From assembly GCA_943736015.1 (NCBI GenBank), contig OX031070.1:26557673-26621672 (forward strand): a DNA stretch of 64,000 nt. The letters run 5' to 3'. Of the stretch, positions 5,022 to 61,231 are shown in pieces. Position 1 is the stretch's first letter, and each line of letters begins with the position of its first letter. The notes beneath the pieces are model-generated. The model ran no database searches. It saw nothing but the letters and a program-made list of their open reading frames with translations, and was not told where the DNA came from. The DNA comes from Tridacna crocea (lineage: Eukaryota > Mollusca > Bivalvia > Cardiida > Cardiidae). A program made the translations under genes and the position numbers.

Positions 5022-5250
5022 TTAACTCATTACCATACGACAAAATTTTAGGTTTGTCCAAATCGAAAGCACTTGCAGACGACAAAATAAAAGTGACCGA
5101 AAATTTGAAACTTGTTTTCTGAAGGGTAGAAAACATTGCGGAAAAAGGAGAAAATGCTGGTTACCAGCATTTTCTCCTTTTCGCACAATGTTTTCCAAAC
5201 ACTTCTTTTGCAGGGTCATTAAAAGTAAGGCTTGTGTGGTAATGGCTTAA
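5022..5250 (+). mobile_element. MITE A, full length
   Basis: TTAA both ends; centre GGTTACC; the right arm has ttcgcaca. Confidence 0.9.
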
Positions 5251-5313: not shown

Positions 5314-5541
5314 TTAAGCATTTACTCCATAGATACTCATTTCTACGCATTGCATGTAGGAGCCTTTGGAAAACATTGTTGCAAAGGTGAAATTGCTCGT
5401 TACGAGCAATTTCACCTTTTGCCATAATGTTTTCTACACTATCAAAAAGGTTCATATACACATAAGAAACGGCTTCATCCTTGCTGTTATTTAGGGTCGG
5501 TTAGAGATACCATAGAAAAGCCTTATGGGATAAAGGGTTAA
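5314..5541 (+). mobile_element. MITE B, full length
   Basis: TTAA both ends, TIR TTTACTCCATA / TATGGGATAAAGGG. Hairpin aaggtgaaattgctcgt / acgagcaatttcacctt, perfect here including the T-A pair that differs from MITE A. It overlaps nothing, but lies just before the possible terminal exon at 5724. Confidence 0.85.
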
Positions 5542-5723
5542 ATTAAAATCATACTATTTAAAAAATAGAAAACCGTGTGAAGATGACAATCTGTTAATTT
5601 GAGGTTGCTTCAAATGTTAGTTACGTACAGAAAAACGAATTTTGAAATCAGGCATAAAAATAAACAACAGACAGAGTGACCTGGCAACTTCTAACCTCAT
5701 TTTGAACTTAATTTCTCTTCCAG

Positions 5724-5800
5724 CAACTAATACTTCGGCCGACCATACAATAACAGCCGTGACTCTCCCTTCCTATACAAATACAATTCCTGAAAACTGA
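5724..5800 (+). CDS. possible terminal exon of the same Thr-rich gene
   Basis: The acceptor TTAATTTCTCTTCCAG (AG 5722-5723) precedes CA ACT AAT, in the phase left by the 943-1077 exon, which would give an Ala codon at the join. The frame encodes TNTSADHTITAVTLPSYTN-type sequence and ends at TGA 5798-5800. Composition matches the upstream exon. An ATTAAA lies about 77 bp downstream (about 5877). No family is recognised. Confidence 0.42.
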
Positions 5801-5897
5801 CACATGTTTGTTACCACTTAATAATCCAATAAGCCATTGCAAAATTCTAATCTTAAGTCTAAAACACCACTAATTCCATTAAAAAAAAACTGTTTTC

Positions 5898-6126
5898 TTA
5901 ACTCATTACCACACAATCCCTTCTTTTGACTACCCCGCAAAAGACACCTTTAGAAAACATTGCCCGAAAAGGAGAAAATGCTTGTAACCAGCATTTTCTC
6001 CTTTTCCCACAATGTTTTCTACTCTTAACAAAACAAATTTCAAATTTTCAGTCTTTTTTATTTTGTCATCTGCAAATGCTTTCAATTTGGACAAGCCTAA
6101 AATATTGTCATTTGGTAATGAGTTAA
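5898..6126 (-). mobile_element. MITE A, full length
   Basis: TTAA both ends; the left arm has gcccgaaaagg and the centre is cttgtaaccag, so two stem mismatches. Confidence 0.88.
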
Positions 6127-6507
6127 ACCTCTTTCTCTAATTTCTGATGGTTACCAACTATTGGCATAAATATCTTCCACTTATTTTTTATTTTATCAAA
6201 ACTCCCTTAAATTTGTTTTGAACATGAAAATCTGGATAGCTCCCTATACATTTGCAAAAATATGATACACAAATGCAAAGCAAACAAACAAGTAATCAAA
6301 ACTTATCTCAACATGCTACATGTATACTACAAACATTCATCATTAAAAGCACTCTTAAGAAAATAACATTGAATATTGATGTTCAAGAGATCTGATGCTG
6401 TAGACTTAAGAAAGCACTGATGACAATGAGAAAATGTTATTTCTGAGCAATGTTTATACAAAATCAGTAGTGTTAGATACTTAAAACAGTCTAATGAGTG
6501 ATACTTA
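6127..6507. other. no feature seen
   Basis: AT-rich, non-coding, no recognised repeat; probably 3' flank of the possible Thr-rich gene. Confidence 0.5.
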
Positions 6508-6712
6508 GCCATTTATCATATGAAGGATCTTAACTGGTCCAAATTCAAAGGCATTGTAGCAAGCAAATCAACTGAGGCTCAGAGGATGAATTTATCTCTA
6601 AAAAGGTAAAAAACAAAGTTGGAAAAGGAGAAAATGCTGGTAACCAGCATCTTCTCCTTTACCAACAATGCTTTTAAAAGCCTCTTTCCCACCAAGAGTT
6701 GTAAAGAGTTAA
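6508..6712 (+). mobile_element. MITE A, decayed E1
   Basis: First of three chained copies; it shares its right TTAA (6709-6712) with the next one. Confidence 0.75.
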
Positions 6713-6937
6713 CCCTTTAACACACAATCCTGCCTTCTAACAACCCTGAGAAAGACGGCTTTTGAAAACATGATGGGAAAAGGAGAAAACGCTACTTACC
6801 AGCACTTTCTTCTTTTCCCATAATGTTTTCTACATTTTCAAGAACAAATACCTTTTTTTTGAAAACATGCCAATTTTCCTTTGTGAATTTCCTCAATGTA
6901 GCCGAGTATGAAATTTTGCTGCGTGGGAAAGGATTAA
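6709..6937 (-). mobile_element. MITE A, full length
   Basis: Middle of the chain, opposite orientation to its neighbours; both TTAA sites are shared. Confidence 0.85.
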
Positions 6938-7159
6938 CTCATCACCAAACAACATTTTAGACTTGTAAAAATTGAAAGCATTTGCAGACGAAAAAATAAA
7001 AGTGACTGAAAATTTGAAATTAGTTCTGTGAAGGGTAGAAAACATTGTGGGAAAAGGAGAAAATGCTGATTACCAGTGTTTTCTCCTTTTTCCACAATGT
7101 TTTCTAAAGGCTTCTTTCTCAGGGTCTTCAAAAGTAGGGATTGTGTGGTAATGGGTTAA
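6934..7159 (+). mobile_element. MITE A, full length
   Basis: Third of the chain; centre gattacc; right arm slightly decayed. Confidence 0.88.
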
Positions 7160-7335
7160 GCAGCTACCAAATTACAAATCTTCTAGACTGGTCAAAATGG
7201 AAAGCGACTGCACACAACAGAAAATCATGTGACTCAAACAGTTAGATTTGAGTGTGCAGATTTGAAGACATGGTGGACTTTGTGGGAAAAAAATTGTGAT
7301 AATCATTTTTCCAAAATGTTTTCAAAACCTTGTTT
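7160..7335 (+). mobile_element. MITE A, decayed
   Basis: ctaccaaattacaaatcttc then agactggtcaaaatgg; the hairpin is destroyed (gtgggaaaaaaattgtgata). Confidence 0.5.
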
Positions 7336-7602
7336 TTAACCGTTTACCAAAAAATCCCTGGTTTTCACGACCCTGAGGTAGTTGCCATTTGAAAACATTG
7401 AGATAAAAGGAGAAAATGATGGTAACCAGCATTTTCTCCTTTTTCCACAATGTTTTTTACCCAGCTGGAAACAATTTTCAATATTTAAGTCATATTTATT
7501 TTGTCGTCTGCAGATGCTTTCAATTTGGACCAGTCTAAAATTTTGTTGTTTTTTAAAATTCCAGGGTTGGTTGAAACAAAGAAATGTTTCATAAAGGATT
7601 AA
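7336..7602 (-). mobile_element. MITE A, full length with altered E1
   Basis: TTAA both ends, but the E1 flank after 7545 holds ~45 bp of extra sequence (tccagggttggttgaaac). Confidence 0.75.
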
Positions 7603-7781
7603 GAGCAATGGAGTGAATGAAAGCAACATGAAAAACAAAATACCACAAATATATTAATATACCATGTACATACCAAACAGTTTCTCTGATTAAAAATCTG
7701 TTTTGATTACAACAACTATACAGTCAAAAATATATCATACAATCATTAAACTAGATCCACTGATTGATAAAACCATCCAAT

Positions 7782-7985
7782 TAACCCTTTACTACACGCC
7801 AAAATTTTAGAAATGTCCGTACGAAAGCAACTTTCAGACGTCGGTTCGACAGTTTTACATAATGAAGGTATTTATCCTTGAATCAATACATGTAGGAATG
7901 ATTGTGGGAAAAGAAAAAAAAAGTTTTTTACCTGCAACCTACAGCCCTCAGACAGAGAAGAAAACATTGTCGGAAAAAGAGTTTG
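7782..7985 (+). mobile_element. MITE A, decayed
   Basis: Good left end ttaaccctttactacacgcc; the core survives only as fragments. Confidence 0.5.
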
Positions 7986-8058
7986 TTTGAATGGTGTCTT
8001 ACTCTGCTTTCAACTTTTTTTCAGCCGTGTCACGGTGACAGATCACATATTCATGTTT

Positions 8059-8114
8059 TCTGGTGGAAAAAGAGAAATATCAAATGTTTCCTGGTGGAAA
8101 AAGAGAAATATCAA
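8059..8114 (+). repeat. 32-bp tandem duplication
   Basis: ctggtggaaaaagagaaata repeated at 8059 and 8091, directly before a MITE. Confidence 0.7.
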
Positions 8115-8342
8115 TTAACTCTTTACCAAACGAGAAAATTCAAGACCAGTCCAAATAGTAAGCATTTGCAGACAACAAATTAAATGTGACTGAAAAATTA
8201 AAATTTGGTTTGGGAAGGGTAGAAAACATTGTGGGAAAAGGAGAAAATGCTGGTTTCCAGCATTTTCTCCTTTTCCCACAATGTTTTCTAAAGGCCTCTA
8301 TTGAGGGTCGTCAAAAGTACGGATTGTGTGGTAATGGATTGA
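8115..8342 (+). mobile_element. MITE A, full length
   Basis: Left TTAA; right end TTGA; centre ggtttcc; the stem is otherwise perfect. Confidence 0.88.
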
Positions 8343-8430
8343 CAGCATTTTTCCCTTTTTTCCACAATGTGTTTGAATGTCTTGAACTTCAGAATAATTA
8401 AAACTTTGGGCTATGTGGTAATGGGTGAAC
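8343..8430 (+). mobile_element. MITE A right half
   Basis: Starts inside the hairpin (cagcatttttcccttttttc) and ends at gtggtaatgggtgaa. Confidence 0.6.
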
Positions 8431-8642
8431 CCTTGGAGGGCCTGGTTAACCAACCCAAGGATTGGTTAATTCTTCAAATAAGACCATGATCGATACTGCA
8501 ATGTCAAGGTTGTCGTTGACCATAATGTCTCGGCTATACTGAGAGTGTAGATCAAAGATCAGCCTGCACATTTTGTACAGTCTAATGCTGGTCTTCACTG
8601 GTGGCAAAGGTACATTAGAGTCATGCTAGGAGCTTTACTGGT

Positions 8643-8897
8643 TTAACCCTGTACCACACAATCCCGACTTTTAACACCCCTGTGAAAGAAGCCCTTTAAA
8701 AACATTGTGGGAAAAGGAGAAAATGCTGGTAACTAGCATTTTCTCCTTTTCCCAAAAAGTTTTCTACCATATCAAAGCAAAATTGCACCATTTCCCTTCC
8801 TAGAACAAAATTCAATTCTTTAGTGACATTCATTTTGTCATCTGCAAATGCTTTCAATTTGGACCCGTCTAAAATTTTGTCATTTGGTAAAGAGTTA
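8643..8897 (-). mobile_element. MITE A, full length with ~25-bp expansion
   Basis: TTAA both ends; extra bases near 8785-8810 (caccatttcccttcctagaa); centre ggtaact. Confidence 0.85.
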
Positions 8898-8981
8898 AGC
8901 ATTATAGAATATACAATCAAACTGAAAGTTTTAAGCAGTCTGATATTGCCAAACATTGTTCTCATAAACACAATCATTCTC

Positions 8982-9135
8982 TTAACCCTTTACCACACAA
9001 TAAAAATGTAGACTTGTCCAGTTTGAAAGCATTTGCAGACAACAAAATACATGTTAAATGTAGCTAAAAATGATGATTTCTGTCTATGACAGGGTCAAAA
9101 ACATTGTAGGAAAAGGAAAAAATGCTGGTTACCAT
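8982..9135 (+). mobile_element. MITE A left half, cut at the hairpin centre
   Basis: Good up to aatgctggttacca, then unrelated sequence. Confidence 0.7.
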
Positions 9136-9567
9136 ATTACACTTAATTGTCTCATATCTAATCCTTAAATTGCCTATCCAACTTTAAACTGCATTTGCAG
9201 AAAATATACATGTAGATCAAGATCACACTGCACAAATCAAACAGTCTGATTTTTGATCTGCACTGTCCAATATGCTGAAACCTCATAATTGTACTTTTTT
9301 AGGTCTTTTTCTTTTTCCTAAGCTGAAAAAATGTCTGATGGGTTTATCTTGCTTTCTAAGGGTTATAATAATGATATTGGAACTATAATGGGTAATTCTT
9401 CAACAACGATGAACCCTTAATTACACACATGGGCCTTTCTATATTCCTACAGTATACAGCTTTTAAAAAAAACAATATCTTTCTTCTTCTAACATTGCAT
9501 CAAAAGTAACACAGTTTGGCATTTTTGTTCAGTACAATCATTTTTTTTTTTTTAATATCTGTACTAG
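9136..9567. other. no gene; one weak hairpin repeat
   Basis: Only a weak hairpin relative near 9210-9260 (gtagatcaagatcacactgc). Confidence 0.5.
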
Positions 9568-9804
9568 TTAACTCTGTAACGAACGATAAAATGCTAGACT
9601 GGTCCATATCAAAAGCATATGCAGACGACAAATTAGAAGTGTCTGGATTTATGAAATTTGTCTCTAAAAGGGTAGAAAACCTTGTGGCAAATGGAGAAAA
9701 TGCTGGTTGCCAGCATTTTCTCCTTTTCCCACAAGGTTTTCAACTTTCCTTTCACGGGCATTTCAAGGGTAGTGAAAAGTAGGACTTGTTTATTAAAGAC
9801 TTAA
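9568..9804 (+). mobile_element. MITE A, full length, matched stem change
   Basis: Left arm aaccttgtgg and right arm ccacaaggtt both differ from the usual attgt/acaat, so pairing is kept. TTAA both ends. Confidence 0.88.
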
Positions 9805-10015
9805 GTCACTTACCGAATGAAGTTTCGGACTTGCTTAAATCTACAGCAATTGTAGACTACAAGTTAAAATTGTTTCAAAATGGTGGAAATTGATTTTGAG
9901 GGGGAAGAAAACATAATGGGATAAGAGAAAATGCAGGTTACCTGCATTTTCTCCTTTTCTCACAATGGTTCCTACAGTTTCAAAAGGTTTTTTTTTTTTT
10001 TTTAACTTAGTATAA
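9801..10015 (+). mobile_element. MITE A, diverged, matched stem change
   Basis: Shares TTAA with the previous copy. The core aatgcaggttacctgcatt has T-to-A and A-to-T changes on opposite arms that keep the stem. Confidence 0.7.
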
Positions 10016-10321
10016 GATAAGGCCATTCAGTATATGGTGATGTAATGTACAAATAATACATGTAAAATGATAAAAGGAACAACATGAATTCTTAAGTAAT
10101 TAAGTAATGCTAACAGTCTTTTCAAAGACTTAACAAAATTATCCCCCTTATTTTACAAACAATAATGCAAGCCATGAAAACATATAATATTCTCCTTCTT
10201 CAAAAAAAATATATATATAAATAAAAATGGCAAAGAGACGAGTTTGTTGGTACCATTCTTGAGTTTGTTGTACAATCATTTTGATATGAGAGTTGCGCTG
10301 TTGTTTCTTGTTCTATTTGTA

Positions 10322-10544
10322 TCAACCTTTACCACATGGCAAAAAATTTGGACCAGACCAAACTTAAAGTATTTGAGGTCATCAATTTAAATGTAGCTCA
10401 AATGATGTCTTTGATAGGGTAGAAACCATTGTGGGAATAGGAGACAATGCTGGTTACCAGCATTTTCTCCTTTTTCCCACAATGTTTTCAAAAGCCTTGC
10501 ATCCAAGAGTCATGGAAACTAGGTGTTGTTTGGTAAGGGATTAA
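10322..10544 (+). mobile_element. MITE A, nearly full length
   Basis: The left tip lacks TTAA; right TTAA 10541-10544; centre GGTTACC. Confidence 0.82.
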
Positions 10545-10787
10545 GACAAATTCTAGCATGATATGAGAATTTTGCTCTATACAAACAATACAAGGAAAGC
10601 ATGACAAAATCAGCAACACTCCATTTAGAAATGACGTCATTCCATATCCAGTGACGTCATTCTGCATAGGCTAAAGGAGTAAGTTATTCCATGGAGCATA
10701 AATTTCATCCATGTTTTTACTGTAACTATGAACTTGTTTTCCTTTCATTGAGAACTGGTCATGTTAGAATCAAAATAATCTTATTTA

Positions 10788-10928
10788 TATCACGGTTCAT
10801 CGTTCAATAAACCATGTGGCGAAATATGATACGCAATGAACAAACCACTTGGGCTATCACCCTTGTGAATTATTTATTGTGTCTCATAACTCACAACTGT
10901 GGTTTTATTGAATGATAAACCATGATAG
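10788..10928. mobile_element. small foldback element, ~140 bp
   Basis: cacggttcatcgttcaataa at the left and tttattgaatgataaaccat at the right are inverted. A right-half relative lies at 13890-13995. Confidence 0.5.
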
Positions 10929-11071
10929 AAAGAGGATTATTTTTTAATTAATGTATGACCTCTCTAAATATAATACTCAGAGGCCCCGATTATCAGTCAA
11001 ATCTGACCCAAGGGCAAAAAGAGGCAAAAATACACCGGCCATGCTCAATGAAATGGGGGGCTTATAGCATC

Positions 11072-11301
11072 TTAACCCCTTTACTCTATAGATACTCATT
11101 TCTACCCATTGCTAATAGGAGCCTTATGAAAAAACTGTGGCAAAAGGTGAAATTGCTCGTCACGAGCAATTTCGCCTTTTGTCACAATGTCTTCTATGCT
11201 ATCAAAAGGTGTCATATACCCATAAGAAACGGCTTCATCCTTGCTGTTATTTAGGGTCAATTTGAGATGCCTTAAAAATGCCTTATGGGGTAAAGGTTTA
11301 A
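11072..11301 (+). mobile_element. MITE B, full length
   Basis: TTAA both ends; core ttgctcgtcacgagcaa; right arm ttcgcc, giving a G-T type pair. Confidence 0.85.
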
Positions 11302-11631
11302 CAGAGTATCAACCCAGGTCAGCCTGGGCAATTTGCACAGGCTGACATTAATGGATACTTCTATTAAATCTTCTACTTCTGATTTGTCTGAGGACAGGTG
11401 TAACTCATGATGCAGTCAGCTGGTATACAGAATTTATGACAAAGATCCAAAATTATGTGAGGTCTTGCATGGTACAATGGAACATAGAGATGCATAAAGC
11501 TCCCTTTTCCTCTATCTTAGCTCACATAAACCAACGTCATGGTCAGAAGCCACACAATATGAAAGATCTTTTGATCCACATGTGACTTAGACTGAGGTGT
11601 ATTTCAGTCGCAAGCGAACGGCTTGGTCAGT

Positions 11632-11847
11632 TTAACCTGTTACCAAACAATCCCTGGTTTTCACAACTCTGAATAACTCTTAAAAACATGGTAGGAAAAG
11701 GAAGAAATGCTGGTTACCAGCATTTTCTCCTTTTTCTACAATGTTTTCCACCCTGTCAAAGACAAATTCAGTTTTGCTGTTGCATTGGATTTTATTGTCT
11801 GCAAACCCTTTCAGTTTGGTCAAGATTTTTTATCTGGTAAAGGGTTA
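11632..11847 (-). mobile_element. MITE A, full length
   Basis: Left TTAA, right TTAG; the core carries gtaggaaaagg / ttttctaca, a stem-compatible change. Confidence 0.8.
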
Positions 11848-11956
11848 GCCACCCTCATCTCATAATGGTTCATGTATCTGGCACCTCTGACACAAGAGAT
11901 CAATACTGCACTGCACTACCTTGCCAAGGAAAACAGTGCATTGAACATTCAAGTAA

Positions 11957-12184
11957 GTTATCCCTTTACTCCATAGATACACATTTCTACGCATTGCTCA
12001 TAGGAGCCTTTTGAAAACATTGTGGCAAAAGGTGAAATTGCTCGTGACGAGCAATTTCGCCTTTTGTCACAATGTTTTCTATGCTATCAAAAGATGTCAT
12101 ATACACATAGAAACTGCTTCATCCTAGTTGTTATTTATGGTCAATTAGAGATACCATAGAAAGGCCTTATGGGGTAAAGGGTTA
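11957..12184 (+). mobile_element. MITE B, full length
   Basis: Both ends are TTAT; core ttgctcgtgacgagcaa. The longest perfect stem of the three B copies after 5314. Confidence 0.85.
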
Positions 12185-13167: not shown

Positions 13168-13396
13168 TTAACCCTTTACCACACAATCCCTACTTTTGAC
13201 GCCCCTAAGAAAGAAGCCTTTTGAAAACACTGTGGGAAAAGGAGAAAATGCTGGTAACCAGCATTTTCTCCTTTTCCCACAGTGTTTTCTACCATCCCCA
13301 GGACAAATTTCAATTTTTCAGTCACCTTTATTTTGTCATCTGCAAATGCTTTCAATTTGGACCAGTCTGAATTTTTCTCGTGTGGTAATGGGTTAA
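13168..13396 (-). mobile_element. MITE A, full length, same matched change as 12576
   Basis: Shares the cactgtggg / cccacagtg pair with the 12576 copy, so the two are close relatives. TTAA both ends. Confidence 0.92.
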
Positions 13397-18200: not shown

Positions 18201-21200
18201 ACTTTTTGGATGTGCAAAGGTTATTGAACAAGGTTAATATTCAAGTAAAAGTATTTTCTTTTTATTAATACTTCATATAGGTCTGTTTTTACCTTTGTTT
18301 TCCAGTTTTCTCTTTCAGAGAGGAAAAATTACAGAATACTTTAAATTGATCTATTATCCAGCGCTGATCCGCTCTTTGCACAAGTTCAAATTTTCAGTAA
18401 TCATCACAATTTAAACTTGTCTATAGTCTCTACGTGATCTCACGTCATCGATACACGTTCGCAAAGCACATTTTTTAATTTTCTTTTAAAATTCAAACGT
18501 TAAAAACACAACATAAATAAAGAGAATTGCATTCTTCCAACGTTAACAGTCGTTTATTTGTGAGCCGAAAGAGCAGAAACCAAGGTAGGACATCGGGTAG
18601 AATAAACGCGATGTCCTGATTGGTCAAATATCGATTTCCACGGATCCATGTATTTGGACATCTCTGAACACAATCTCTGAACACCATCATGAACTTTCGA
18701 TGACCCCAAAAAAGAAGGCTTTTGGAAACATTGCAGGAAAAGGAGAAAATGCTGGTAACCAGCATTTTCTCCTTTTCCCACAATGTTTTCTACCCTTCCA
18801 ATATCACATTTCAGTTTTCAAGTCACAGTAAATTTGTCGTCAGCAAACGCTGTCAAGTTAGACCAGTCTACAATTTCGTTGTTCGGTAAAGGCTTAATAT
18901 AACATTCGTGTATCTCATACTATCATGTTGTGTTATTCAACATCCCAAAAACTGTAACACAAAGAAATTTTAAAGCTGTCTGCATTTAACCCTCTCCCAA
19001 ACGACAAAATTTCAGACTTGTCCAAACTGAAAGCACATGGAGATGATCAAATAAATATAACTCAAAAATTTAAATTTTTTTCCAGCAGGGTAGAAAAAAA
19101 AAAATTGCAGGAAAAGGAGAAGATGCTGGTTAACAGCATTTTCTCCTTTTCCCACAATGTTTTCAAAAGGCCTCTTTCTCGGAGTCGTAAAAAACAGGGA
19201 TTGTTTGGTAAAGGGTTAAAGCACTTGCAGATGACAAATCAATTGTGACTCAAATTGTGAGATTTGTCTGTGATACTAGGCCAGAAAATGTAGGCAGAGG
19301 AGAAAATGCTGTGTATCAGCATTTTCTCCTTTTCCCACATTGTTTCCAAAAATATTCATTAGGATTGTAAAAACCCATGATTATGTGGTAAAGGGATAAC
19401 AGCTTGATGCATACCTGTTGTCTAGATACTTTTATAGGATACTCTTAAAAGCAGTTGTATTATGAGGTAGTAAGTTCAAAGGTATACATGTACCTTGACA
19501 AATTCTACTGGAATCTTCCCTTCGACAATATCTGATGTTTCTCCATTCACTTTTAACTTTCCATGTCGAATCTGGAAAGGAACGATCTCATCGTGCGCCA
19601 CCCCACGTCCAACTTTTCCATAGATATCTAGTTCATGAATAACTGTATGCTCTTTGTTGAGTAATATGTCAAACACCTGCAAAAAATCAGGTGCATAAGA
19701 TATATCAATCTTGCTTGGGGGAAAAAATACACAACAGAAACACCACTGGCACATGATGATGTGTGCTTCATATTACCAGTGATCTGCCGAGCTTTTGAAG
19801 ATGCTGGGACAATGTCCCCTTTGACTGAAAAAATTGGGGACATTTTCAAAAAACTGGGGACATTTTCACACCATTTCCTCTTAAAAACTCTTCGGTTTTT
19901 TAGACCAGACATTTTATTGTACATGTTGTCAACACTAGAGGACAACGGGGTGGGGGGGGGTGTTTCACTTTCAGAGGTGATCGGGCTGTCGTTATGATTT
20001 TGGTTATTGTCATTGTCAACACTAGCGGAGGACTGGGTGGGGGTCTTTTCACTTTCAGAGGCGATCGGGCCTTCCTTTTGATTTTGGATTAATTAATTAC
20101 TATCTAGATCAGTGTCAGATTGTGTTTTATTTGACTCCACATCGCATTGTGTTGTCAGTTTCTTTGTAGGAGCAGTGAAATATGATTGAATGTCCCTCAT
20201 GGACAATCTTTTCCGCTTTGTGTCTCCGTCGGCCATGGTTACTGTTGTTGCGAGCTATTTCGTCAAAAACAGTTTGATTGGTAGCTAGCTACATGGTAGC
20301 GTGTGTGCAGCCAATCACAATCGCCAAAACAAACTATGGTATAGAGGAAGTGGGCTTTCCTCTGACACAAACTTTCTGTTTACCTACTTTCGCTTTGAAA
20401 AGGTTAGTTCTTTCGGTTTTGAAACTGGACACAGCCGATTTTGTGTTGCGTCATTGGCGCACCTGTTGGAATTTTCATGCGCCCTAGATGATTTTACTGC
20501 GTCCAGGGCGCAAAAACGCAGCCTCGGCAGATCACTGTATTACATTATATACGGTAATTGATCAGGGACAGCATTCTTCTTTTCTTTCACTTGGAGCTTG
20601 TGGACTTTTTGAAATTGCATAAAATGTTTAAATAAATCTATCAAATTGGAAAAATTCAGGTAACTGGTATATATTGTTGTGAAGTACCATTTTCTCAACT
20701 TGAAAGTTTAGGTTAACTCTACCAGATGACAAAATTTGAGATTTGTACAAATTGAAAGTGTTTGCATTTGTAAGTTACTGACTCAAGTAATGGTTTTCTT
20801 TGAAAGGGTAAAAAACCTTGTGTGAAAAGGATAAAATGCTGTTTACCTACATCTTCCCTTTTTCTTGCTATGTGGTCTGTAAAAGTACACATGGTGGGAA
20901 AAGAAGAAAATGCTGTTTACCAGCATTTTCTCCTTCTCCCACAATGTTTCAAAAAGTTTACTTTCCATGGGTCGTTCAAACACAGGAATCTGACATTCTA
21001 TAACCAAAATAAATAACAAGAGGGCCAAGATGGCCCTGGATCGCTCACCTGAATTTTTGAGATGACCATAGTCTATTTTTTTTTTTAGGTATTCAAACAT
21101 TGGAACCAAATTTATAATTTTGCCAAGCAATTTTCAAAAGGTCACCTGTAAAAATCATTTCGAAATCTGACCATCAGTTTCAAAAAGAAGAGTTTTTAAG

Positions 21201-24200
21201 AATTCTTCATTTCTGTATAAGAGCAAGTAGCCCCCATCCATGAGACCCATGTTTCTTGATGGATCAAAATTTACAAACAAGTTTTGAAAAGGGTCACCCA
21301 AGGAACATCTCTCTGAAATAATTTCAAAATCTGACCAGGGGTTTCAGAGAAAGAGAATTTTAAAGAATTTCATCATGTCCATATAGTGCAAGTAGCCCCC
21401 ATTCACAAGACCATGTTTCTTGATGGATCAAAATTATATGTACAGCTTTTGGAAAGGGTCCCACAAGGAACATCTCTGTCAAATTATTTTAAAATCTGAC
21501 CACAGGTTTCAGAGAAGAAGAATTTTCAAGAATTCTTCATTTCCATATAGTGCAAGTAGCCCCCATTCACTAGAGCCATGTTTCTTGGCCAATCAAAATT
21601 TTGCGAACAATTTTAGAAAAGGGTCACCCAAGGAACATCTCTGTGAAATTATTTCAAAATCTGTCCAGCCATTTCAGAGAAGAAGAATTTTCAAGAATTT
21701 CTTCATTTCTATATAGTGCAAGTAGCCCCCATTCACCACAGCCATGTTTCTTGACCAATCAAAATTTCGCTAACAATTTTTGAAAAGGGTAACCCAAGGA
21801 ACAAGTCTGTGAAATTATTTCAAAATCTAACCAGCGGTTTCTGAGAAGAAGAATTTTTAAGAATTTCTTCATTTCTGTATAGTGCAAGAAGCCCCCATTC
21901 ACCAGAGCCATGTTTCTTGACAGATCAAAATTTCGCGAACAATTTTTGAAAAGGGTCATCCAAGGAACATCTCTGTGAAATTATTTTAAAATCTGACCAG
22001 CGGTTACAGAGAAGAAGAATTTTTAAGAATTTCTTCATTTCTGTACAGTGCAAGAAGCCCCCATTCACCAGAGCCATGTTTCTTGACGGATCAAAATTTC
22101 ACGAACAATTTTTGAAAAGGGTCACCTAAGGAACATCTGTGTGAAATTATTTTAAAATCTGGCCAGCGGTTTCAGAGAAGAAGAATTTTTAAGAATTTCA
22201 TCATTTCTGTATAGTGCAAGAAGCCCCCATTCACCAGAGCCATGTTTCTTGACGGATCAAAATTTCGCGAACAATTTTTGAAAAGGGTTACCCAAGGAAC
22301 ATCTGTGTGAAATTATTTTAAAATCTGGCCAGCGGTTTCAGAGAAGAAGATTTTTAAAGAATTTGCTAAAAAATTCCATTTCGTTGCCATGGCAACCAGA
22401 GTTTTTGACGGAATCAAATTCTGTGAACAATTTTTAAAGAGGACCTCCCAAGGAACATTCCAGCCAAGTTTGGTCCAAATCCGCCCAGCGGTTTAGGAGG
22501 AGTTGATGTTTAAAGAATTGTTGACGACGCACGACGCACTGACGCACGACGGACGACGGACACCTGGTGATCCTAAAAGCTCCCCTTGAGCACGTTGTGC
22601 TCAGGTGAGCTAATAAAATATGGAAAAAAAAATCCCCCCTATATAATATAATACAAGAGGGCCAAGATGGCCCTGGATCGCTCACCTGAGTTTTGAGATG
22701 ACCATAGCCTACATTTTTTTTTTTTTGAGGTATTGAAACATTGGAACCAAATTTATAATTTTGCTAAGCAATTTTCAAAAGGTCACCTGTAAAATTCATT
22801 TCCAAATCTGACCATCAGTTTCAAAAAGAAGAATTTTTAAGAATTCTTCATTTCTGTTTAAGAGCAAGTATCCCCCATCCACGAGAGCCATGTTTCTTGA
22901 TGGATCAAAATTTACGAACAAGTTTTGAAAAGGGTCACCCAAGGAACATTTCGGAAAATTTCTTTTAAAATCTGACCAGGGCTTTCAGAGAAAGAGAATT
23001 TTCAAGAATATCATCATGTCCATATAGTGCAAGTAGCTCCCATTCACAAGAGCAAGGATCACCCAAGGAACATCTCTGTCAAATTATTTTAAAATCTGAC
23101 TAGGGGTTTCAGAGAAAAAGAATTTTCAAGAATTTCTTCATTTCCATATAGTGCAAGTAGCCCCCATTCACCAGAGCCATGTTTCTTCATGGATCAAAAT
23201 TTTGTGAACAGGTTTTGAAAAGGGTCACCCAAGGATCATCACTGTGAAATCATTTTAAAATCTGTCCAGCCGTTTCAGAGAAGAAGAATTTTTAAAAATT
23301 TCTTTATTTCCCTATAGTGCAAGTAGCCCCCATTCACCAGAGCCATGTTTCTTGACGGATTAAAATTTTGTGAACACTTTTTGAAAAGGGTCACCCAAGG
23401 AATATCCCAGAGAAATTATTTCAAAATCTGACCAGTGGTTTCAGAGAAGAAAAAATTTTAAGAATTTCCTCATTTCCCAATAGTGCAAGAAGCCCCCATT
23501 CACCAGAGCCATGTTTCTTGACGAATCAAAATTTCGCGAACAATTTTTGAAAAGGGTCACCCAAGGAACATCTCTGTGAAATTATTTCAAAATCTGACCA
23601 GGGGTTTCGGAGAAGAAGATTTTTTTAAGAATTCCTTCATTTCTATTTAGTGCAAGTAGCCCCCGTTCACCAGAGCCACATTTTTTGACGGATCAAAATT
23701 TCACGAACAATTTTTGAAAAGGGTCACCCAAGGAACATATCTGTGAAATTATTTCAAAATCCAACCAGCGGTTTCAGAGGAGAAGATTTTTTAAGAATTC
23801 CTTCATTTCTGTATAGTGCAAGTAGCCCCCATTCACCAGAGCCACAATTTTTGACGGATCAAAATTTCACGAACAATTTTTGAAAAGGGTCACCCAAGGA
23901 ACATATCTGTGAAATTATTTCAAAATCCGACCAGCGGTTTCAGAGGAGAAGATTTTTAAAGAATTTGCTAAAAAATTCCATTTGGTTGCCATGGCAACCA
24001 GAGTTTTTGATGGAATCAAATTCTGTGAACAATTTTTAAAGAGGACCTCCCAAGGAACATTCCTGCCAAGTTTGGTCCAAATCCGCCCAGCGGTTTAGGA
24101 GGAGTTGATGTTTAAAGAATTGTTGACGACGCACGACGGACGACGGACGACGCACGACGGACGACGCACGACGCACGACGGACGACGGACGACGGACACC

Positions 24201-25584
24201 GGGTGATCCTAAAAGCTCCCCTTGAGCACGTTGTGCTCAGGTGAGCTAATAAACACAAGGAGTGCAACGTCTCGATTGCTGGCGCGAGCACCCGACAGCC
24301 TTTCCCAACCAAAATCACCCACGAAACAAACATTGATCATAATCTCCTTCAGCCTAGCGATAGACAAGACATTAATGTACCTGCGACATCCGGCGATACC
24401 TCAGTAGACACCTTTCAACCGGAGATATCCGTCATGTTTTACAGCTCTATCAGGACATTTTGATTTATCCGGGTGGCCATTCACTGACGTCACAGAAAGT
24501 AGCAGGTACCCTATTTTCGTATTACTTATTACTAGTATTTTTTTTTATTTTAAGACATTTATGGACATAAAATGATACTAAAGATTCTAGAAAAATCTGT
24601 AGTATCATGTGATGCCCATAAGTATCTTAAAAATGGAAAAATAATAGTAATAAGTAATACGAAAATACGGTATCTGCTACTTTCTGTGACGTCAGCGAAT
24701 GGCCACCCGGATAAATCAAAATGTCCTGATAGAGCTGTAAAACATGACAGATATCTCTGGTTGAAAGGTGTCTACTGAGGTATCGCCGGATGTCGCAGGT
24801 ACATGAATGTCTTGTCTATCGCTAGGCTGAAGGAGATTATGATCAATGTTTGTTTCGTGGGTGATTTTGGTTGGGAAAGGCTGTCGGGTGCTCGCGCCAG
24901 CAATCGAGACGTTGCACTCCTTGTGTTTATATTATATAGGGGGGGGATTTTTTTTCCATATTTTATCATTTATTTTGGTTATAGAATGTCAGATTCCTGT
25001 GGTTCAAACTCTGGATTTTGAGATAAAGGGTTGACAAGCAATTACTTGAATAAAGAATACTAATATTGTAAATATTGAGGAAAAAGGAGACAAAGCTGGC
25101 AACCAGCATTTTCACAAAACACTGGTTTCCAAACACGTTCAATTTGAACAAGTCTAAAAATTTGTCATTTGGTACAGGATTATTGCTTTACCTTCTGATT
25201 AGGGGAGGTAAACCACACCTCCGAAAATTTCAACACAATCACATACTCGCCATCTTTTTTGAGAGGAATGTCATAGCCAAATGTTTGCATATGATATCTT
25301 TCTGTCTGATATAAAATCTGGTCCTGAGGTACGACACGCTGAATCATTAATGATTTTCCATAATCGGATGAAATTCCGACGCTATGTGTATCCCTTTGGT
25401 AGCGAATACCCTGGATATCGGTGTGTGCCTCGCCTCCACAGTTAACAGCCCAAATCACGTCATCGATTACGAGGCAGTTTGTAAACAATGAGAGTGAGCA
25501 TAAAAGTGAGAACAAAAAGTTGCTTTCAACAGAAAACCGTCGCATGGATACGAGGAAATTTGATAGAAATGCCAGAATCAACAT
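14975..25584 (-). CDS. MLEC: malectin, four exons: join of 25584-25192, 19676-19494, 16952-16895, 15201-14975
   Basis: Malectin is an ER type I membrane lectin that binds diglucosylated high-mannose N-glycans early in glycoprotein quality control, working with ribophorin I of the oligosaccharyltransferase complex (known for vertebrates). The four exons join in phase into 286 residues; vertebrate malectin is about 290. In order: a hydrophobic signal segment (residues 22-39), the malectin domain from VIWAVN (43-48) to about residue 210, with the family motifs GGEAH, DQILYQTERY, TFGY, VLKFSEV, AHDEI, VEFVKGD and DNPK, then an Asp/Glu-rich linker (NQDEEEDEEEE), and a C-terminal membrane helix ending LLFCLCKL. 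The aromatic residues of the sugar pocket (Tyr in DYG and ERY, Phe-Gly-Tyr) and the Asp of DNPK are present. Introns of about 5.5, 2.5 and 1.7 kb are full of MITEs. No frameshift is seen, so it is probably functional. Confidence 0.95.
15254..15481 (+). mobile_element. MITE A, full length, malectin intron 3
   Basis: TTAA both ends; centre ggctagc. It begins 51 bp upstream of the exon 4 acceptor. Confidence 0.9.
15500..15745 (+). mobile_element. two decayed MITE A pieces
   Basis: A right half (15500-15583, ccccacaaggttttcaaaag) then a diverged copy with core gaacatgctggttcccattt and tip gtttggtataaag. Confidence 0.55.
15931..16156 (-). mobile_element. MITE A, full length
   Basis: Left TTAA; the right tip is gtgtggtaaagtatt; one arm change (cccacgatg). 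Confidence 0.85.
16532..16743 (+). mobile_element. MITE A, decayed
   Basis: Core aagatgctggcaactagcat; ends near TTAA 16740-16743, about 150 bp downstream of malectin exon 3 in transcript order. Confidence 0.6.
16895..16952 (-). CDS. MLEC: malectin exon 3 (58 bp)
   Basis: A small exon: acceptor TTTTTGATTTCAG, then GGTGACTTGGACAATCCC, encoding GDLDNPKINAIYVMRGAVD, then one base of a split codon before the donor GTAAGG (from 16894). The DNPK motif holds the Asp that contacts the glycan in characterised malectins. The phase (1 at its 3' end) matches exon 4. Confidence 0.92.
17692..17911 (+). mobile_element. MITE A, diverged
   Basis: gtcaccaaatgacaaaattt at the left; tatgtggtaaacggttaa at the right; stem damaged. 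Confidence 0.7.
18688..18897 (-). mobile_element. MITE A, E2 tip lost
   Basis: Perfect core; right TTAA 18894-18897; the left end grades into unrelated intron sequence. Confidence 0.82.
18986..19219 (+). mobile_element. MITE A, full length
   Basis: TTAA both ends; an A-run in the left arm (gaaaaaaaaaaattgcagg). Confidence 0.85.
19216..19400 (+). mobile_element. MITE A, E1 shortened
   Basis: Shares TTAA with the previous copy; starts at aagcacttgcagatgac; core ctgtgtatcagc. Ends about 90 bp past malectin exon 2. Confidence 0.75.
19494..19676 (-). CDS. MLEC: malectin exon 2
   Basis: Sixty-one codons, phase 0 at both ends. The acceptor is TTTTTTGCAG (AG at 19678-19677) and the donor is GTACAT (from 19493). 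It encodes VFDILLNKEHTV through VPVEFVK-type sequence with the family motif AHDEIVPF, and continues the lectin domain directly from exon 1. Confidence 0.93.
19760..20236 (-). pseudogene. possible gene fragment inside malectin intron 1
   Basis: From ATG at 20236 the minus strand encodes MADGDTKRKRLSMRDIQSYF, a basic N-terminus with a degenerate PCNA-box-like pattern (I..YF, lacking the Gln). A single TAA at 20095-20093 interrupts the frame after 47 codons. The same frame then stays open through two imperfect repeats of a Ser/Asp/Asn-rich unit (SESE, SVDN) and a basic stretch NRRVFKRKW. The surroundings are more CpG-rich than the rest of the intron. Similar starts occur in hAT- and zinc-finger-type transposon proteins, but I cannot name the family. 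It could be a retrocopy or a transposon 5' end. Confidence 0.35.
21015..22613 (+). mobile_element. satellite-bearing element, ~166-bp monomers (copy 1)
   Basis: It begins acaagagggccaagatggcc (a hairpin) followed by gctcacctga, and ends gtgctcaggtgagc. The core is a tandem array with period about 166 bp (the landmark catgtttcttga recurs near 21412, 21576, 21742, 21908, 22075 and 22242). A gacgcacgacgg minisatellite lies near the right end. Insertion splits the left arm of the foldback element. Confidence 0.8.
22652..24249 (+). mobile_element. satellite-bearing element, ~166-bp monomers (copy 2)
   Basis: Same orientation, ends and monomer as the copy at 21.0 kb but an independent insertion: the foldback arm sequence on either side differs. 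The target duplication lies within ATAA but cannot be fixed because the site is AT-rich. The right-end minisatellite (gacgacgcacgacggacgac, 24124-24200) is longer than in copy 1. Confidence 0.8.
25060..25183 (-). mobile_element. MITE A right part, 7 bp from a malectin splice donor
   Basis: Core gctggcaaccagcattttca; tip gtcatttggtacaggatta. The malectin exon 1 donor GT is at 25191-25190. Confidence 0.7.
25192..25584 (-). CDS. MLEC: malectin exon 1 (signal peptide and N-terminal two thirds of lectin domain)
   Basis: This exon carries 131 codons and ends in phase 0 at CAGAAG before the donor GTAAAG (25191-25186). Two in-frame starts are possible. Met1 is at 25584. Met14 is at 25545 and gives a cleaner signal peptide: MRRFSVESN, then a hydrophobic run to about residue 39. 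I prefer Met14 as the functional start but give the longer frame. Motifs VIWAVN, GGEAH, SSDYG, DQILYQTERY and FGYDIPL are all here. Confidence 0.92.
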
Positions 25585-38770: not shown

Positions 38771-39822
38771 CTCCAAACAATCAGCAACAATCAAAACTTG
38801 AAGAAGTAAACCTGTAATAAACTACATTTGACAAGGCCTAAAAAAAAAATAGTTTGTTTCGGGTAACCCGACCCTACCTGGAGATTTTGCCCCGACCCTA
38901 TTTTTTTTTTTCTTCTGATAAGAAAAAATCGGCCTTTTATCTTACTGTGTCACAGAACACATCTGTCATGTACTACTACATACATACAGTGTTAAAATTC
39001 ATTATTAAAGATGAGAAGATAGTTTGAAGTCCCTCTGGTCGGACGATGCCATGCTGATCATTGAAGTGTCATGGGTTTTCGCGTTTTTTCGGCGATCTAT
39101 TTTTTCGTGACAAAGTTTTTGAGAAGTATTACTACATGATTTGACATCAGTTTGTCATTTTGAGTAGCAGATAACTTGAAAATATGTCACTTTACACTAG
39201 ATAAGATGATTAACACCGTTATTACCCTGTCATAAATGACTCTCCAGCTTCATGATCATGCGCCTGTCGTTCGCATTTTATACTGATGTGTTTACGTGTT
39301 TAGCCCATATTTCTGCTGGATGCACGAAAGGTAGGTTATATAAGCTCTAGACCATAAATTCCTGCGTCAGATACTTTGCAGCGTCAAAGACATGTCATTT
39401 CAATTTTCCAGCGCCGAAACCCGCACAATTGTCAACTTCGGAAGACCGTTGCCGATCTGCGATTACCTATTTGTAAAGAACAAAGACAATTTAAACTGAG
39501 CCATCTTTCGCTAGCAAATACTCAAATAGCAGCCAGAATTCGTCCGCTAAACCAAACGACCTTGTTAATGCTTTATTTTTTTTTTACAATCCTAGTGACA
39601 AAAAATGTTACAGGCGGCAAACCGATCAAAACACAGTTTCAACTTTTTGGGCACGAACATAATAAAATCATATGATCACCTTAGAATGTTCCGAATTGGC
39701 ATCTATATATAAAACGTTGAAAACCCTAAGCTAGAGTGAGTGACTGTCATCATTTCGCTGCAAATCATTCCCCAAATTGCAAAGTTTGATAAATTTCATT
39801 GTTATTAGGGCTGTTTTTGTTT

Positions 39823-42160
39823 TTAGCTCACCTGAGCACGAAGTGCTCATGGTGAGCTATTGTGATCGTGCTGTGTCCGGCGTCCGTCGTCCGTCGTGCG
39901 TCGTGCGTCGTCCGTCGTCAACTTTTTACCTTGTGTACGCTCTACAGGCCACAGTTGTAGTCGGATACTCATGAAAATTGGTCAGGATGTTTGTCTCGAT
40001 CAAATCTCGGACGAGTTCGAAAATGGGTCATGTGGGGTCAAAAACTAGGTCACTAGGTCAATTCTTAGAAAAACCTTGTGTACGCTCTAGAGGCCACATT
40101 TTGAGTTGGATACTCATGAAAGTTGGTCAGGATGTTTGTCTCGATGATATCTCGGACGAGTTCGAAAATGGGTCATGTGGGGTCAAAAACTAGGTCACTA
40201 GGTCAAATCTTAGAAAAACCTCGTGTACGCTCTAGAGGCCGCATTTTGAGTCGGATACTCATGAAAGTTGGTCAGGATGTTTGTCTCGATGATATCTCGG
40301 ACGAGTTCGAAAATGGGTCACGTGGGGTCAAAAACTAGGTCACCAGGTCAAATCTTAGAAAAACCTTGTGTACGCTCTAGAGGCCGCATTTTCAGTCGGA
40401 TACTCATGAAAGTTTGTCAGGATGTTTGTCTGGATGATATCTCGGACGAGTTCGAAAATGGGTCACGTGGGGTCAAAAACTAGGTCACCAGGTCAAATCT
40501 TAGAAAAACCTTTTGTACGCTCTACAGGCCGCATGTTCAGTCGGATATTCATGAAAGTTGGTCAGGATGTTTGTCTGGATGATATCTCGGACGAGTTCGA
40601 AAATGGGTTACGTGGGGGCAAAAACTAGGTCACCAGGTCAAATCTTAGAAAAACCTTGTGTACGCTCTAGAGGCCACATTTTCAGTCGGATACTCATGTA
40701 AGTTGGTCAGGATGTTTGTCTGGATGATATCTCGGACGAGTTCGAAAGTGGGTCTCGTGGGGTCAAAAACTAGGTCACTAGGTCAAATCTTAGAAAAACC
40801 TTTTGTACTCTCTAGAGGCCACATTTTCAGTCGGATACTCATAAAAAATGGTCAGAATGTTTGTCTGGATGATATCTCGGACGAGTTTGAAAGTGGGTCA
40901 CGTGGGGTCAAAAACTAGGTCACCAGGTCAAATCTTAGAAAAACCTTTTGTACGCTGTAGAGGCCACATTTTCAGTCGGATACTCATGAAAGTTGGTCAG
41001 GATGTTTGTCTGGATGATATCTCGGACGAGTTCGAAAATGGGTCACGTGGGGTCAAAAACTAGGTCACCAGGTAAAATCTTAGAAAAACCTTTTGTACGC
41101 TCTAGAGGCCACATTTTTTGTCGCATACTCATGAAAATTGGTCAGGATGTTTGTCTGGATGATATCTCGGATGAGTTTGAAAATGGGTCACGTGGGGTCA
41201 AAAACTAGGTCACTAGGTCAAATCTTAGAAAAACCTTTTGTACGCTCTAGAGGCCACATTTTCAGTTGGATACTCATGAAAGTTGGTCAGGATGTTTGCC
41301 TGGATGATATCTCGGACAAGAACGAAAATGGGTCATGTGGGGTCAAAAACTAGGTCACTAGGTCAAAAGTTAGAAAAACCTTTTGTAGGCTCTAGAGGCC
41401 ACAATTTCAGTCCGAAACTCTTGTAAGTTGGTCAGAATGTTTGTCTTGATGATATCTCAGACAGGTTTGAAAATGGGTCATTGGGGGTTAAAAACTAGGT
41501 CACCAGGTCAAATCTTAGAAAAACCTTGTATATGCTCTGGATGCCACATTTTAAGTCCAACACTCTTGAAAATTAGTCAGAATGTTTGCCTTTATAATAT
41601 CTTGGATGAGTTTGAAAATGGGTCATGTTGGGTCAAAAACTGGGTCAATAGGTCAAATGTTATAAACACCTTTTGTATGCTCTGGAGGACACATTTTCAG
41701 TCTGATACTCCTAAAACTTGTTCATAATATTTGTCCTGGTGATACCTTGAATGAGTTTGAAAATGGGTCATGTGGAGTCAAAAACTAGGTCAATGGGTCA
41801 AATATTAGAAAAACCTTGTGTACACTCTAGAGGCTACATTTTCTGCCTGATACTCTTCAGACTTGGTCAGAATGTTTGTTTTGGTGATGTCTCAAAAGAG
41901 TTTGATAATGGGTATTTGTCGGGTCCAAAACTAGGTCACTTGATGAAATCTTAGAAAAACCTTTTGTACACTGTAGAGGCCACATTTTCAGTCCAATACT
42001 CATGAAACTTGGCCAGAATGTTTGTCTTATTGATATCTCAAAAGTGTTTGATGATGGGTAATGTCTGATAAAAAACTAGGTCACTGGGAAACTAGATGGT
42101 GCATGTTTGGTCAATAAACTCAGGTGAGCGATTTCAGGGCCATCATGGCCCTCTTGTTTT
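39823..42160 (-). mobile_element. satellite-bearing element, 145-bp monomers
   Basis: Left end ttagctcacctgagcacgaa with a gagcacgaagtgctc hairpin, then a cgtccgtcgtgcgtcg minisatellite (39877-39921). About 15 tandem 145-bp monomers follow, sharp at 39960-41300 and decayed to the right. The right end is caggtgagcgatttcagggc. Relative to the 21.0-kb elements it is inverted and carries a different monomer. Confidence 0.8.
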
Positions 42161-50068: not shown

Positions 50069-52332
50069 TTTTTAGGCCAGGGAATCCCTCTCAAGGGATT
50101 CCCTTACCTATAGGGATCGTAAGCTGCCTATTCAGACAAAAATGTTGGACGGTGTGTCTACTCTATATCGCTGAGTCCGCCAAAACAACTAGTTTCCCAA
50201 GTATATACAGAGATTACTTATCACACGGTGTGAATGCTTTCCTTTCCTAAAAGCTTTCATCTGCAAAATGCCATGGAATTGCAAGGGTATTACAATCCAG
50301 TAATAACTGACGATTGTGTGTTTTTTATCCCGTTTTTGTCATTAACACTGACCTAATAAAGGCGTAACCTGATGAACTTTGCTTTATCCGGCAGTCGTGT
50401 ATTCTTACGCGCTATATACGGTTAATATCTATAACGCTCTCTCTTGCAGTCCGGATCATTCACATTCAGGTATGGTGAGATTAACGAACGACGACTCTGC
50501 TCGGAGTTTGTCTATAACGTTGTGTTGACATTTGAACATGTATGTCACAAAACACGTCTTCGCTAAAATGAGATTGTAAATAAAGCAAACTACATATAGA
50601 ATATTGGCCCGTGTTATGTTTATCACTTTTTCCTATGTATATCGACTAAATCTAAGGTACTTAAGCGGAATGCTGGAGAAATCGGCCCCTGGAGAAATCG
50701 TCCCCAAATAAAATAAAATCGTTCCCTGGAGACGATTTCTTTGGTGAAATCGTCCCGAAATAAAATTTTAGAAAAATCGACCCAACATCAAATTTCATTC
50801 ATATCGTTAATCAAGTTGTCTATAAAAATATTTCTGAAATTTCGTTGTCTTTAGTATGTACATTATGTGTATTATATACCTTTATCCAAGAGTTATTTGG
50901 TAGTTTTGTCATTGTTTATACTGCCTATTTCACACTGATAGGATGTATTTCACACCTTTTACACCTGTCACAAATAGATTACACCTGTGTGATTCTTAAA
51001 AATGTCTTTGATTGAGTTTGATTTGAAACCAAATAAATGCTTATACATGTAATTTCTTTCTGTAGCTGTTCGCTTGTCATTTAATGTATTTTTTTCATCT
51101 CTCTCTCTCTCTCTCTACTGGTGTTATATGACATAACTGTGACCAATACCATTTAGCAGGGGCATCAGTGTCTCTGACACACATATTTCTAGTGTTCACT
51201 AGGGCTTGTGTGTATCCGAACATTTCCGGTCCATAACTTCTACAATTGTGGATGGATTTCAAAATAATTTGGCACAACTGACCTCCATCACGGTTAGATG
51301 TGCCATTTTAAACATCTGTTCAAGTAGGTTCAAGATTAAGGCCACATTGAAGGTCAATTTTTCGTCCGAATCTTAACTCCTACATTTTTGGATAGATTCC
51401 GATATAAATTAGCATAATCATATTGTTCTCCATCATGAGCAGAAGTTCCCTTTAAAACATTTATTCAGGTCCAGGGTCTAGGTCAAGCTTGAGAGTCAAG
51501 TGTCCGCGGGCTTGACACAAGTTGTCCTTGGACAACGATTATGAATTAGGATTAACGTCTTTTTATATTATGTAGATATAAGTATCGAAGCTCAAATCAC
51601 TGTGACTTGTCCGTAAAGTAGGCAAGTAAAATAGGAAAACCAAGCCTAATCGTTTTCCTAAAACAATCCAACCTTTTCACAGTATTTTATTGAGAAAATA
51701 TTTTGGCTAAAAGAGAATTTGCTTGTAACAAGCAATTCCTCCTAATTTCCCCAAAATCTTACGTTTCAATATACACGAAGAACTACTTTGGATTTTCATC
51801 TACAACTTCCTTCAAATATGACCAGTTCAAAATTTCGTCGACTTGTGGAAGGTAGAGGCAACATGACCAACTGCCATATCACTCCAATCTTTATTAATCA
51901 TTACATTTTACCTTGATATCTATCTTACATGTATTTTCATTGAAATCAATAAGAATGAATATGTTCTTGCGACATAAATGTAAAAAATAAAGTCATTCAG
52001 GACTACAAGACATCACATATCTCAAAAAATTTAGATAACAAAAGTTGGTATTGCGCCGATTGAATACGGTTCAATTTTGACTTGGGATTGTTTACAAGCA
52101 CAACAAATTACTAAGTTTTCTAAGCCATTATCAAGCACCCCATAACTGTGAGCACATGTCTAGCTCTGGCTTAATTAGTTTCTGGCTGGTGCTATCTAGT
52201 ATCAGTTCAAAATTTCCTGATAAAACCAAGAATTCCAGGGGCTTAGTGGAATCCCCTTGTATCCCTGTCTGTCTACCTGTTTATATTAATTAAAATTGAC
52301 CTCATGTGTTGTTTCGTATCCTCAATTTCCTG
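50069..52332 (-). mobile_element. hairpin-ended element, possibly Helitron-like (copy 2)
   Basis: Same ends and terminal hairpin (50080-50103) as the 27716 copy. It differs by a 52-bp stretch near 50198-50250, an 83-bp segment bounded by TCTATAACG repeats (50428-50519) and an unrelated middle (about 51100-51960). It interrupts the TTAA-flanked element that starts at 49580. Confidence 0.5.
51670..51845 (-). mobile_element. old relative of MITE A/B, third stem sequence
   Basis: Core gaatttgcttgtaacaagca then attcctcct. The flank still reads gaccagttcaaaatttcgtc. Confidence 0.5.
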
Positions 52333-53248: not shown

Positions 53249-53314
53249 GCGAAAAGTGTCGACCCTGGTCAGACTGCGCCGTTGCATAGGCTGACCAGGG
53301 TCAACACTTTTCGC
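53249..53314. repeat. 24-bp-stem hairpin
   Basis: GCGAAAAGTGTCGACCCTGG pairs with CCAGGGTCAACACTTTTCGC, extended by TCAG/CTGA, with one G-A difference and an 18-nt loop. Confidence 0.75.
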
Positions 53315-59080: not shown

Positions 59081-59334
59081 TTAAATCTGCAGCCTTGTAG
59101 GCTGCCTTTCAACATTTGAAAGTAGGCTAAGTTCAGTGGTGCCAGTTCTGGCAAATAGGGTGGATGTGATAGCCTGGGAAACCTAAAAGCCCAATTTCTT
59201 ACACTGGACAAAGGTTTTGCTTATTCTGATAATATCAGCAATTTCTCTCACTGTGAGTCATTGATCACTTCTGATTACATCAGATACAGTTTGGAGTACA
59301 GTCTTGTTATTCAACTTCTTTGGCTTGCCATTTT

Positions 59335-60590: not shown

Positions 60591-60599
60591 ATTTTATTA

Positions 60600-61159: not shown

Positions 61160-61231
61160 CCAATCTATTTTAAAATGCATTGGTATATGGCCTCGCTTTT
61201 TATTTTAATTTTTATACTTTGCTCATGCACT

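Follow-up and report, generated by a model that had tools for sequence, protein, structure and literature searches.

A palindromic core that changes in step on both arms between families of piggyBac-type MITEs in the bivalve Tridacna crocea

Background

What keeps the two arms of a long palindrome matched while the transposable elements that carry it diverge? The question is raised by a stretch of 64,000 nucleotides from the bivalve Tridacna crocea (GenBank assembly GCA_943736015.1, contig OX031070.1, forward-strand positions 26,557,673 to 26,621,672; hereafter the window), which is crowded with miniature inverted-repeat transposable elements (MITEs). A preliminary description of this DNA proposed that the stems of two MITE families, A and B, differ by compensatory base pairs. 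The observation is sound: the kind of element is ordinary, its conserved core is unusual and the mechanism that maintains this core is testable. A, B and a further family, E, have diverged within a single group of piggyBac-type (TTAA) MITEs. Their consensuses differ in the core by changes on both arms, and the copies now resident in the genome mostly decay on one arm at a time.

The palindrome and its paired differences

The palindrome is 67 nt long (33+1+33) and occupies nucleotides 56-122 in A, B and E alike, and each of the three consensuses is paired at 33/33 positions. The spacer from tip to palindrome is 51 nt on the left in A, E and B, and 103, 102 and 103 nt on the right, respectively. 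Folded as single-stranded DNA, the consensus stems of A and B reach z scores of -14.5 and -15.2 against shuffled sequences.

Between A and B, the B consensus being drawn from 35 copies of which 25 were selected by their left arm, four pairs have changed on both arms and none on one arm: pair 13 (G-C to C-G), pair 20 (A-T to T-A), pair 25 (A-T to T-A) and pair 30 (G-C to C-G). Random placement would produce this with p ~9e-8. The compensatory differences first noticed in the window are thus borne out by two consensuses that both remain fully paired; pair 20 reads T-G in two B copies of the window. The comparisons of A with E and of E with B each give three two-sided and no one-sided differences. 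Over the three families this amounts to five distinct pair events, for which the random-placement value is p ~5e-9, with sites taken as independent, consensuses counted and pair 12 of B left out. A rare form of the core, the C-type, carries T-A at pair 30, so that this pair has three Watson-Crick types; its 35-place core has 17 forward exact matches genome-wide, and copies were found at loci L022, L069 and L071 as well as in the window. A count of paired changes over 12 copies, which were chosen to represent the types, serves as an illustration and not as a test.

The arms are identical at 58-60/66 positions between families. The inner flanks agree at 20/43 and 37/95 positions between A and B, at 21/43 and 30/94 between E and B, and at 29/43 and 61/94 between A and E. 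The A-B values exceed those of shuffled sequences (p ~0.003 and ~0.007), the likeness lying mostly beside the palindrome, and the 30/94 of E and B is no better than shuffles (p 0.15). In addition, the tips of A and B are identical at 21/22 positions, and their total length and the position of the palindrome are the same. The flanks of the two families had been described as otherwise unrelated: their inner similarity is indeed weak, but they are related in tips, length and layout. The companion claim, that the paired stem is the part kept across families, is supported, since inner-flank identity is much lower than that of the arms and the consensus differences in the stem are all two-sided. Within family A, the palindrome and the tips of 107 non-seed copies are less variable than most of the flank.

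Decay of the palindrome in resident copies

Rows classed by their flanks numbered 132 for A and 36 for B, one of the latter being a misassigned A copy whose exclusion leaves 35. Six transposase-derived loci (L025-L029, L070), near-identical copies of one element, were excluded and three overlapping loci trimmed; three further copies of that element (L034, L037 and L069) were retained, so that a few nested MITEs are counted more than once. A sample picked by its palindrome was dropped as biased towards pairing, and full-length profile matches were used instead (111/132 A and 11/36 B rows), pattern seeds and rows with fewer than 60/67 palindrome columns being excluded. Among the 111 A copies, 42 symmetric double changes were counted, compared to 14.6 in shuffles (standard deviation 3.7, maximum 30 in 5000), together with 24 asymmetric ones. 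Of the 42 symmetric doubles, 25 fall at pairs 7, 19, 25 and 30, which are markers of families or subfamilies.

Single pairs were also surveyed on one contig by forcing one arm position to differ and counting by eye the first 100 listed rows of each survey, in which a symmetric locus occupies two rows. At pair 23 (first 100 of 3147 places), 80 loci were changed on one arm only, 9 symmetrically and 1 asymmetrically; the corresponding counts were 90, 4 and 1 at pair 26 (of 3547), 96, 2 and 0 at pair 28 (of 9148), and 94, 1 and 2 at pair 30 (of 11167). Summed over these listed rows, the four pairs give 360 single, 16 symmetric and 4 asymmetric loci. At pair 23, a single kind of change, A to C, accounts for eight of the nine symmetric loci. 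As read from the rows, the flanks of seven of these eight are alike, that of L099 is not, and some single-change copies are alike too; the mean flank distance is 0.225 among the eight, 0.279 between them and the single-change copies, and 0.273 among the single-change copies themselves. In family B, eight copies picked by their flanks, out of 20 sought, differ from the consensus by 4.2% and 5.3% in the arms and by 4.2% and 4.8% in the flanks, and ten other copies by 4.0% and 5.5% in the arms and by 7.1% and 6.0% in the flanks.

Thus, paired change is mostly a property of the lineages that went on transposing, and resident copies are hardly protected. Since resident arms decay singly in most of the listed rows and B arms change at about the rate of their flanks, continuous repair of the stem in place was rejected as the main force that keeps it, and the constraint seems instead to act on source lineages. 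Independent change of the arms at the rate of the flanks, which the preliminary description had set against its own idea, is found within families, among resident B copies, and not between families.

The centre base

In family A, changes at the centre are to T, its complement, 16 times, to G 6 times and to C 4 times (T versus G, p 0.009 against the spectrum of changes in the flanks); leaving out three rows that are C-type or duplicates gives T 13 versus G 6, p 0.04. In family B, the complement C occurs 4 times and A or T twice (p 0.002 without one misassigned row), and in family E the centre is A in 18/19 copies and T in 1/19. The centre-flipped copies form no clade by flank distance. This inversion in unrelated copies fits occasional template switching at the palindrome and is, given the small numbers, a modest sign of it. 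The proposal that a cruciform or RNA hairpin is under selection or undergoes templated repair is thus partly supported: it gains from the inversion of the centre and loses from the mostly single change of resident arms. The role in recognition for mobilisation that was also suggested is plausible.

The elements and their relation to piggyBac transposons

A and B are TTAA-flanked MITEs of 229 nt, and length across A, B and E is 228-229 nt. The repeat that crowds the window starts with TTAA-CCCTTTACC and ends with AAAG(A/G)G-TTAA. In the 1,048,827,098 bases searched, arm patterns of 32 nt with at most 3 mismatches matched the A arm 464,222 times forward and 461,892 times in reverse, and the B arm 51,818 and 51,846 times, the control counts being 0. 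As an intact palindrome is matched once in each direction, A copies number several hundred thousand, and the short length and high copy number looked for in a TTAA MITE are both present. Family E was detected via aberrant copies and then counted, with 8,383 forward exact matches of its 35-place core. One 20-base pattern was also searched outside this genome, in viral_contigs, with 0 matches.

A target-site duplication can be read at one site, where the filled locus L031 has ...GGC-TTAA-element-TTAA-ACC and the empty loci L015 and L033 have ...GGCTTAAACC. At a second site, filled in L033 and empty in L015, the insertion is likewise flanked by TTAA, but the empty copy has TTTA. The left tips of A, B and E all start TTAA-CCCTTT, in agreement with the terminal motif CC[C/T]T; on the right, B and E end in AAAGGG-TTAA, and the A consensus, AAAGAG-TTAA, departs from the strict motif. 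The duplication and the left tips together identify these elements as piggyBac-type MITEs.

A scan for transposases gave 118 PF13843 matches, of which 30 loci were examined. Hairpins lying beside transposase sequences had been considered as the ends of autonomous elements, and were rejected because they are nested A MITEs, the true element ends being further out. One multi-copy piggyBac-type element of 7.2 kb (L069:467-7669; L069 and L070 are 99.9% identical over 7.2 kb) has an open reading frame of 486 aa that matches DDE_Tnp_1_7, and it was the sole transposon whose ends could be compared with A. Its left end agrees with that of an A copy at 31/38 bases, as counted from the alignment, and 8 matches to the 35-base left end, with no more than 3 mismatches, are present genome-wide; the element may be an autonomous partner that mobilises A. 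The element also contains nested A MITEs, and its two near-intact palindromes (27/30 and 28/30 pairs) both lie inside them. About four repeats of ~35 bp are seen at its left end, and near-identical copies are present on several chromosomes. B-type ends were recognised as the own ends of none of the 30 transposase loci, with flanks of up to 1.5 kb.

Copies and other repeats in the window

Of the 68 MITE profile matches (nhmmer) in the window, which together make up 19.3% of it, 39 are A copies of full length, 26 are partial A copies and 3 are B copies of full length. Both stems reported in the preliminary description are present. The three B copies, all on the forward strand, lie at 5315-5540 (182 bits, also supported by sequence and fold; palindrome at about 5369-5434, its left arm with a 1-nt deletion), 11075-11300 (181 bits; palindrome 11128-11194, with a centre C that is the complement of the consensus G) and 11959-12184 (188 bits; palindrome 12013-12079). 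Full-length A copies surround them at 5023-5249 (reverse strand, 172 bits), 5899-6125 (forward, 156 bits), 6935-7158 (reverse, 168 bits) and 8116-8340 (reverse, 165 bits), and a further A copy at 8644-8897 (forward, 155 bits) has an insertion to the right of its palindrome. The A copy at 13169-13395 (forward, 181 bits; palindrome 13223-13289) belongs to a subfamily with a paired change of T-A to C-G at arm pair 7, and the one at 56673-56902 (reverse; nhmmer and fold) has a fully paired palindrome at 56782-56848. A third form of the stem, said to survive at 51670-51845, is real but decayed: we place it at 51692-51850 on the forward strand, where its C-type core reads GCTTGTAACAAGC, with T-A at pair 30. 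It scores 29.9 bits with the A profile, a score reached by 0/300 shuffles, and its fold is weak (z -3.6).

The window holds other repeats besides the MITEs. Tandem arrays at 39783-42091, 21123-24018 and 58149-63857 have periods of ~145, 166 and 156 bp and presumably resemble the satellite-like arrays of bivalves. An inverted repeat of 294 nt, 98% complementary, has its arms at 24249-24542 and 24637-24930, separated by 94 nt. A second kind of palindromic repeat, of the AGTGTCG...CTGCGCAG type, occurs at 53282 and 11332, and also at L044:505, L057:163 and L016:264; its variants are each largely self-complementary, so that their arms seem to differ in step from one variant to another. More palindromic repeats, of a GGGTACAAGTTCTC type and a GGGTACTCATTAGAAT type, lie at 32930, 34078, 46871 and 52858.

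What maintains the palindrome

The explanation that we tentatively prefer, while holding it at somewhat less than an even chance, is that the central palindrome is a cis-acting module that selection preserves in transposing source copies, probably as a two-fold-symmetric binding site, with rare self-templating. Source copies that are still transposing would have to hold the module near-symmetric and at set distances from the two tips; the likeliest reason is that a putative dimeric DNA-binding protein of the transposition machinery would read both arms. In a surviving lineage, a change in one arm would then tend to be followed by a change in the other, and copies would be freed from the constraint after insertion, their arms decaying independently. 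Rare template switching may turn the centre base into its complement and rewrite one arm from the other, supplying lineages with ready-made paired changes.

Several observations weigh against this explanation. In the 480 nt next to each end of the 7.2-kb element, no comparable palindrome is present (best 17/30 pairs), and a degraded one (19/30) is centred 520 nt from its right end; the palindrome may therefore not be a transposase site. This argues against the simplest model of such a site, unless the MITEs have their true partner in a different piggyBac family. The piggyBac CRD site measures 19 bp, yet here the entire 33-bp arms are paired, beyond what a dimer would need. Nor is the symmetry absolute: pair 12 of B is changed on one side in 13/43 copies and on both in 2/43, so that A and some of the B copies are separated by a one-sided change. 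The right-arm C has become T, with the left G intact, in 5/25 arm-picked, 4/10 other and 4/8 flank-picked copies, and both arms have changed, giving A-T, in 0/25, 1/10 and 1/8, respectively. The coexistence of G-C, G-T and A-T is also a possible step path to a paired change.

Self-templating alone, in which the arms are evened out as template switching, or cruciform processing, corrects the quasi-palindrome and no function is required, appears to us rather unlikely as a full account. It would explain why the complement is in excess of the flank-spectrum expectation at the centre, why flipped copies do not group by flank distance and why symmetric changes outnumber asymmetric ones in the listed survey rows, and the same process is described for ribosomal RNA hairpins (PMC8794818). 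It leaves unexplained, however, that the sequence of the palindrome is conserved while the flanks drift: conservation beyond pairing still needs selection or exchange. It also fits poorly with the preponderance of single changes in residents, with the sharing of one change by nearly all symmetric loci at pair 23 and with the persistence of one-sided changes at pair 12 of B. A combination of the two ideas, a self-maintaining hairpin module that would act as a folded or two-fold-symmetric transposition signal at fixed tip distances and repair itself via template switching, is in our opinion doubtful; if true, several hundred thousand palindromes would document, across a whole animal genome, the correction of quasi-palindromes.

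An RNA role, with MITE transcripts forming a 33-bp stem that is under selection because it serves as a precursor of small RNAs or a silencing decoy, seems improbable. The fold, computed with DNA parameters, is very stable, and the changes that B often shows on one arm, at pair 12 and, in the window copies, at pair 20, give G-T and T-G, both of which still pair in RNA, but an RNA role gives no reason to expect a constant distance to both tips, and an Rfam scan of the 64-kb window gave 0 matches at the gathering score. Still less probable is the movement of the palindrome between unrelated MITEs by ectopic gene conversion or capture, its conservation then reflecting copying and not selection. 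The similarity of A and B does peak in and right beside the palindrome. Nevertheless, 0/132 rows with A flanks carry B letters at pair 13 or pair 20, and 29/35 rows with B flanks carry both B pairs and 0/35 both A pairs, although 25/35 had been picked by their B arm; among the eight flank-picked B copies, five have both B pairs and three have one side of one pair mutated. Furthermore, the position of the palindrome and the total length agree between families, and the flanks of E are intermediate.

Few conserved internal modules of MITEs have been pinned down, and the abundance of some MITEs, which reach hundreds of thousands of copies, still calls for an explanation. Here the module is delimited to the base and its geometry is nearly fixed, and the contrast between paired change in families and single decay in residents separates selection on source copies from ageing. 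The copies also lend themselves to measuring how often, in an animal genome, one arm of a palindrome is corrected from the other and the centre is inverted.

Comparison with known systems

In the open-access literature we found no MITE with an internal palindrome and no compensatory or covarying MITE stem, which does not establish absence from print; for clam piggyBac MITEs, just a general review turned up. The nearest described case that we found is that of the CMITEs of Acropora corals. According to the main text of Wang et al. (2010; PMC2872659), these are piggyBac-type, with a TTAA duplication and CCCTTT-like tips, and a comparison of families shows stronger conservation in the internal region than in the terminal inverted repeats (TIRs); its origin is given as unknown and a role in transposition is suggested. 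One CMITE family resembles a piggyBac element solely at and beside the TIRs. As described, they are like A, B and E in the TTAA duplication, the tips and the presence of a conserved internal region. CMITEs are ~100 bp long, with ~1600 copies estimated in A. millepora, whereas the Tridacna elements are 228-229 nt long, have several hundred thousand arms and carry a palindrome with 33-bp arms and paired change; the words "palindrom", "hairpin" and "secondary structure" are absent from that main text.

As described for the piggyBac and piggyBat transposases (PMC7351741, PMC11707139), CRD dimers bind palindromic internal repeats. Those elements share with the MITEs the TTAA target, and their palindromes are subterminal, of at most 19 bp and near the tips, whereas that of the MITEs is single, 67 nt long, and 51 and 102-103 nt away from the TTAAs. 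The MITEs resemble the template-switch hairpins and quasi-palindrome correction treated in PMC8794818 in that imperfect inverted repeats undergo paired change and inversion of the loop. Unlike in those hairpins, paired change in the MITEs is mainly found at the level of families, and the sequence itself is also conserved.

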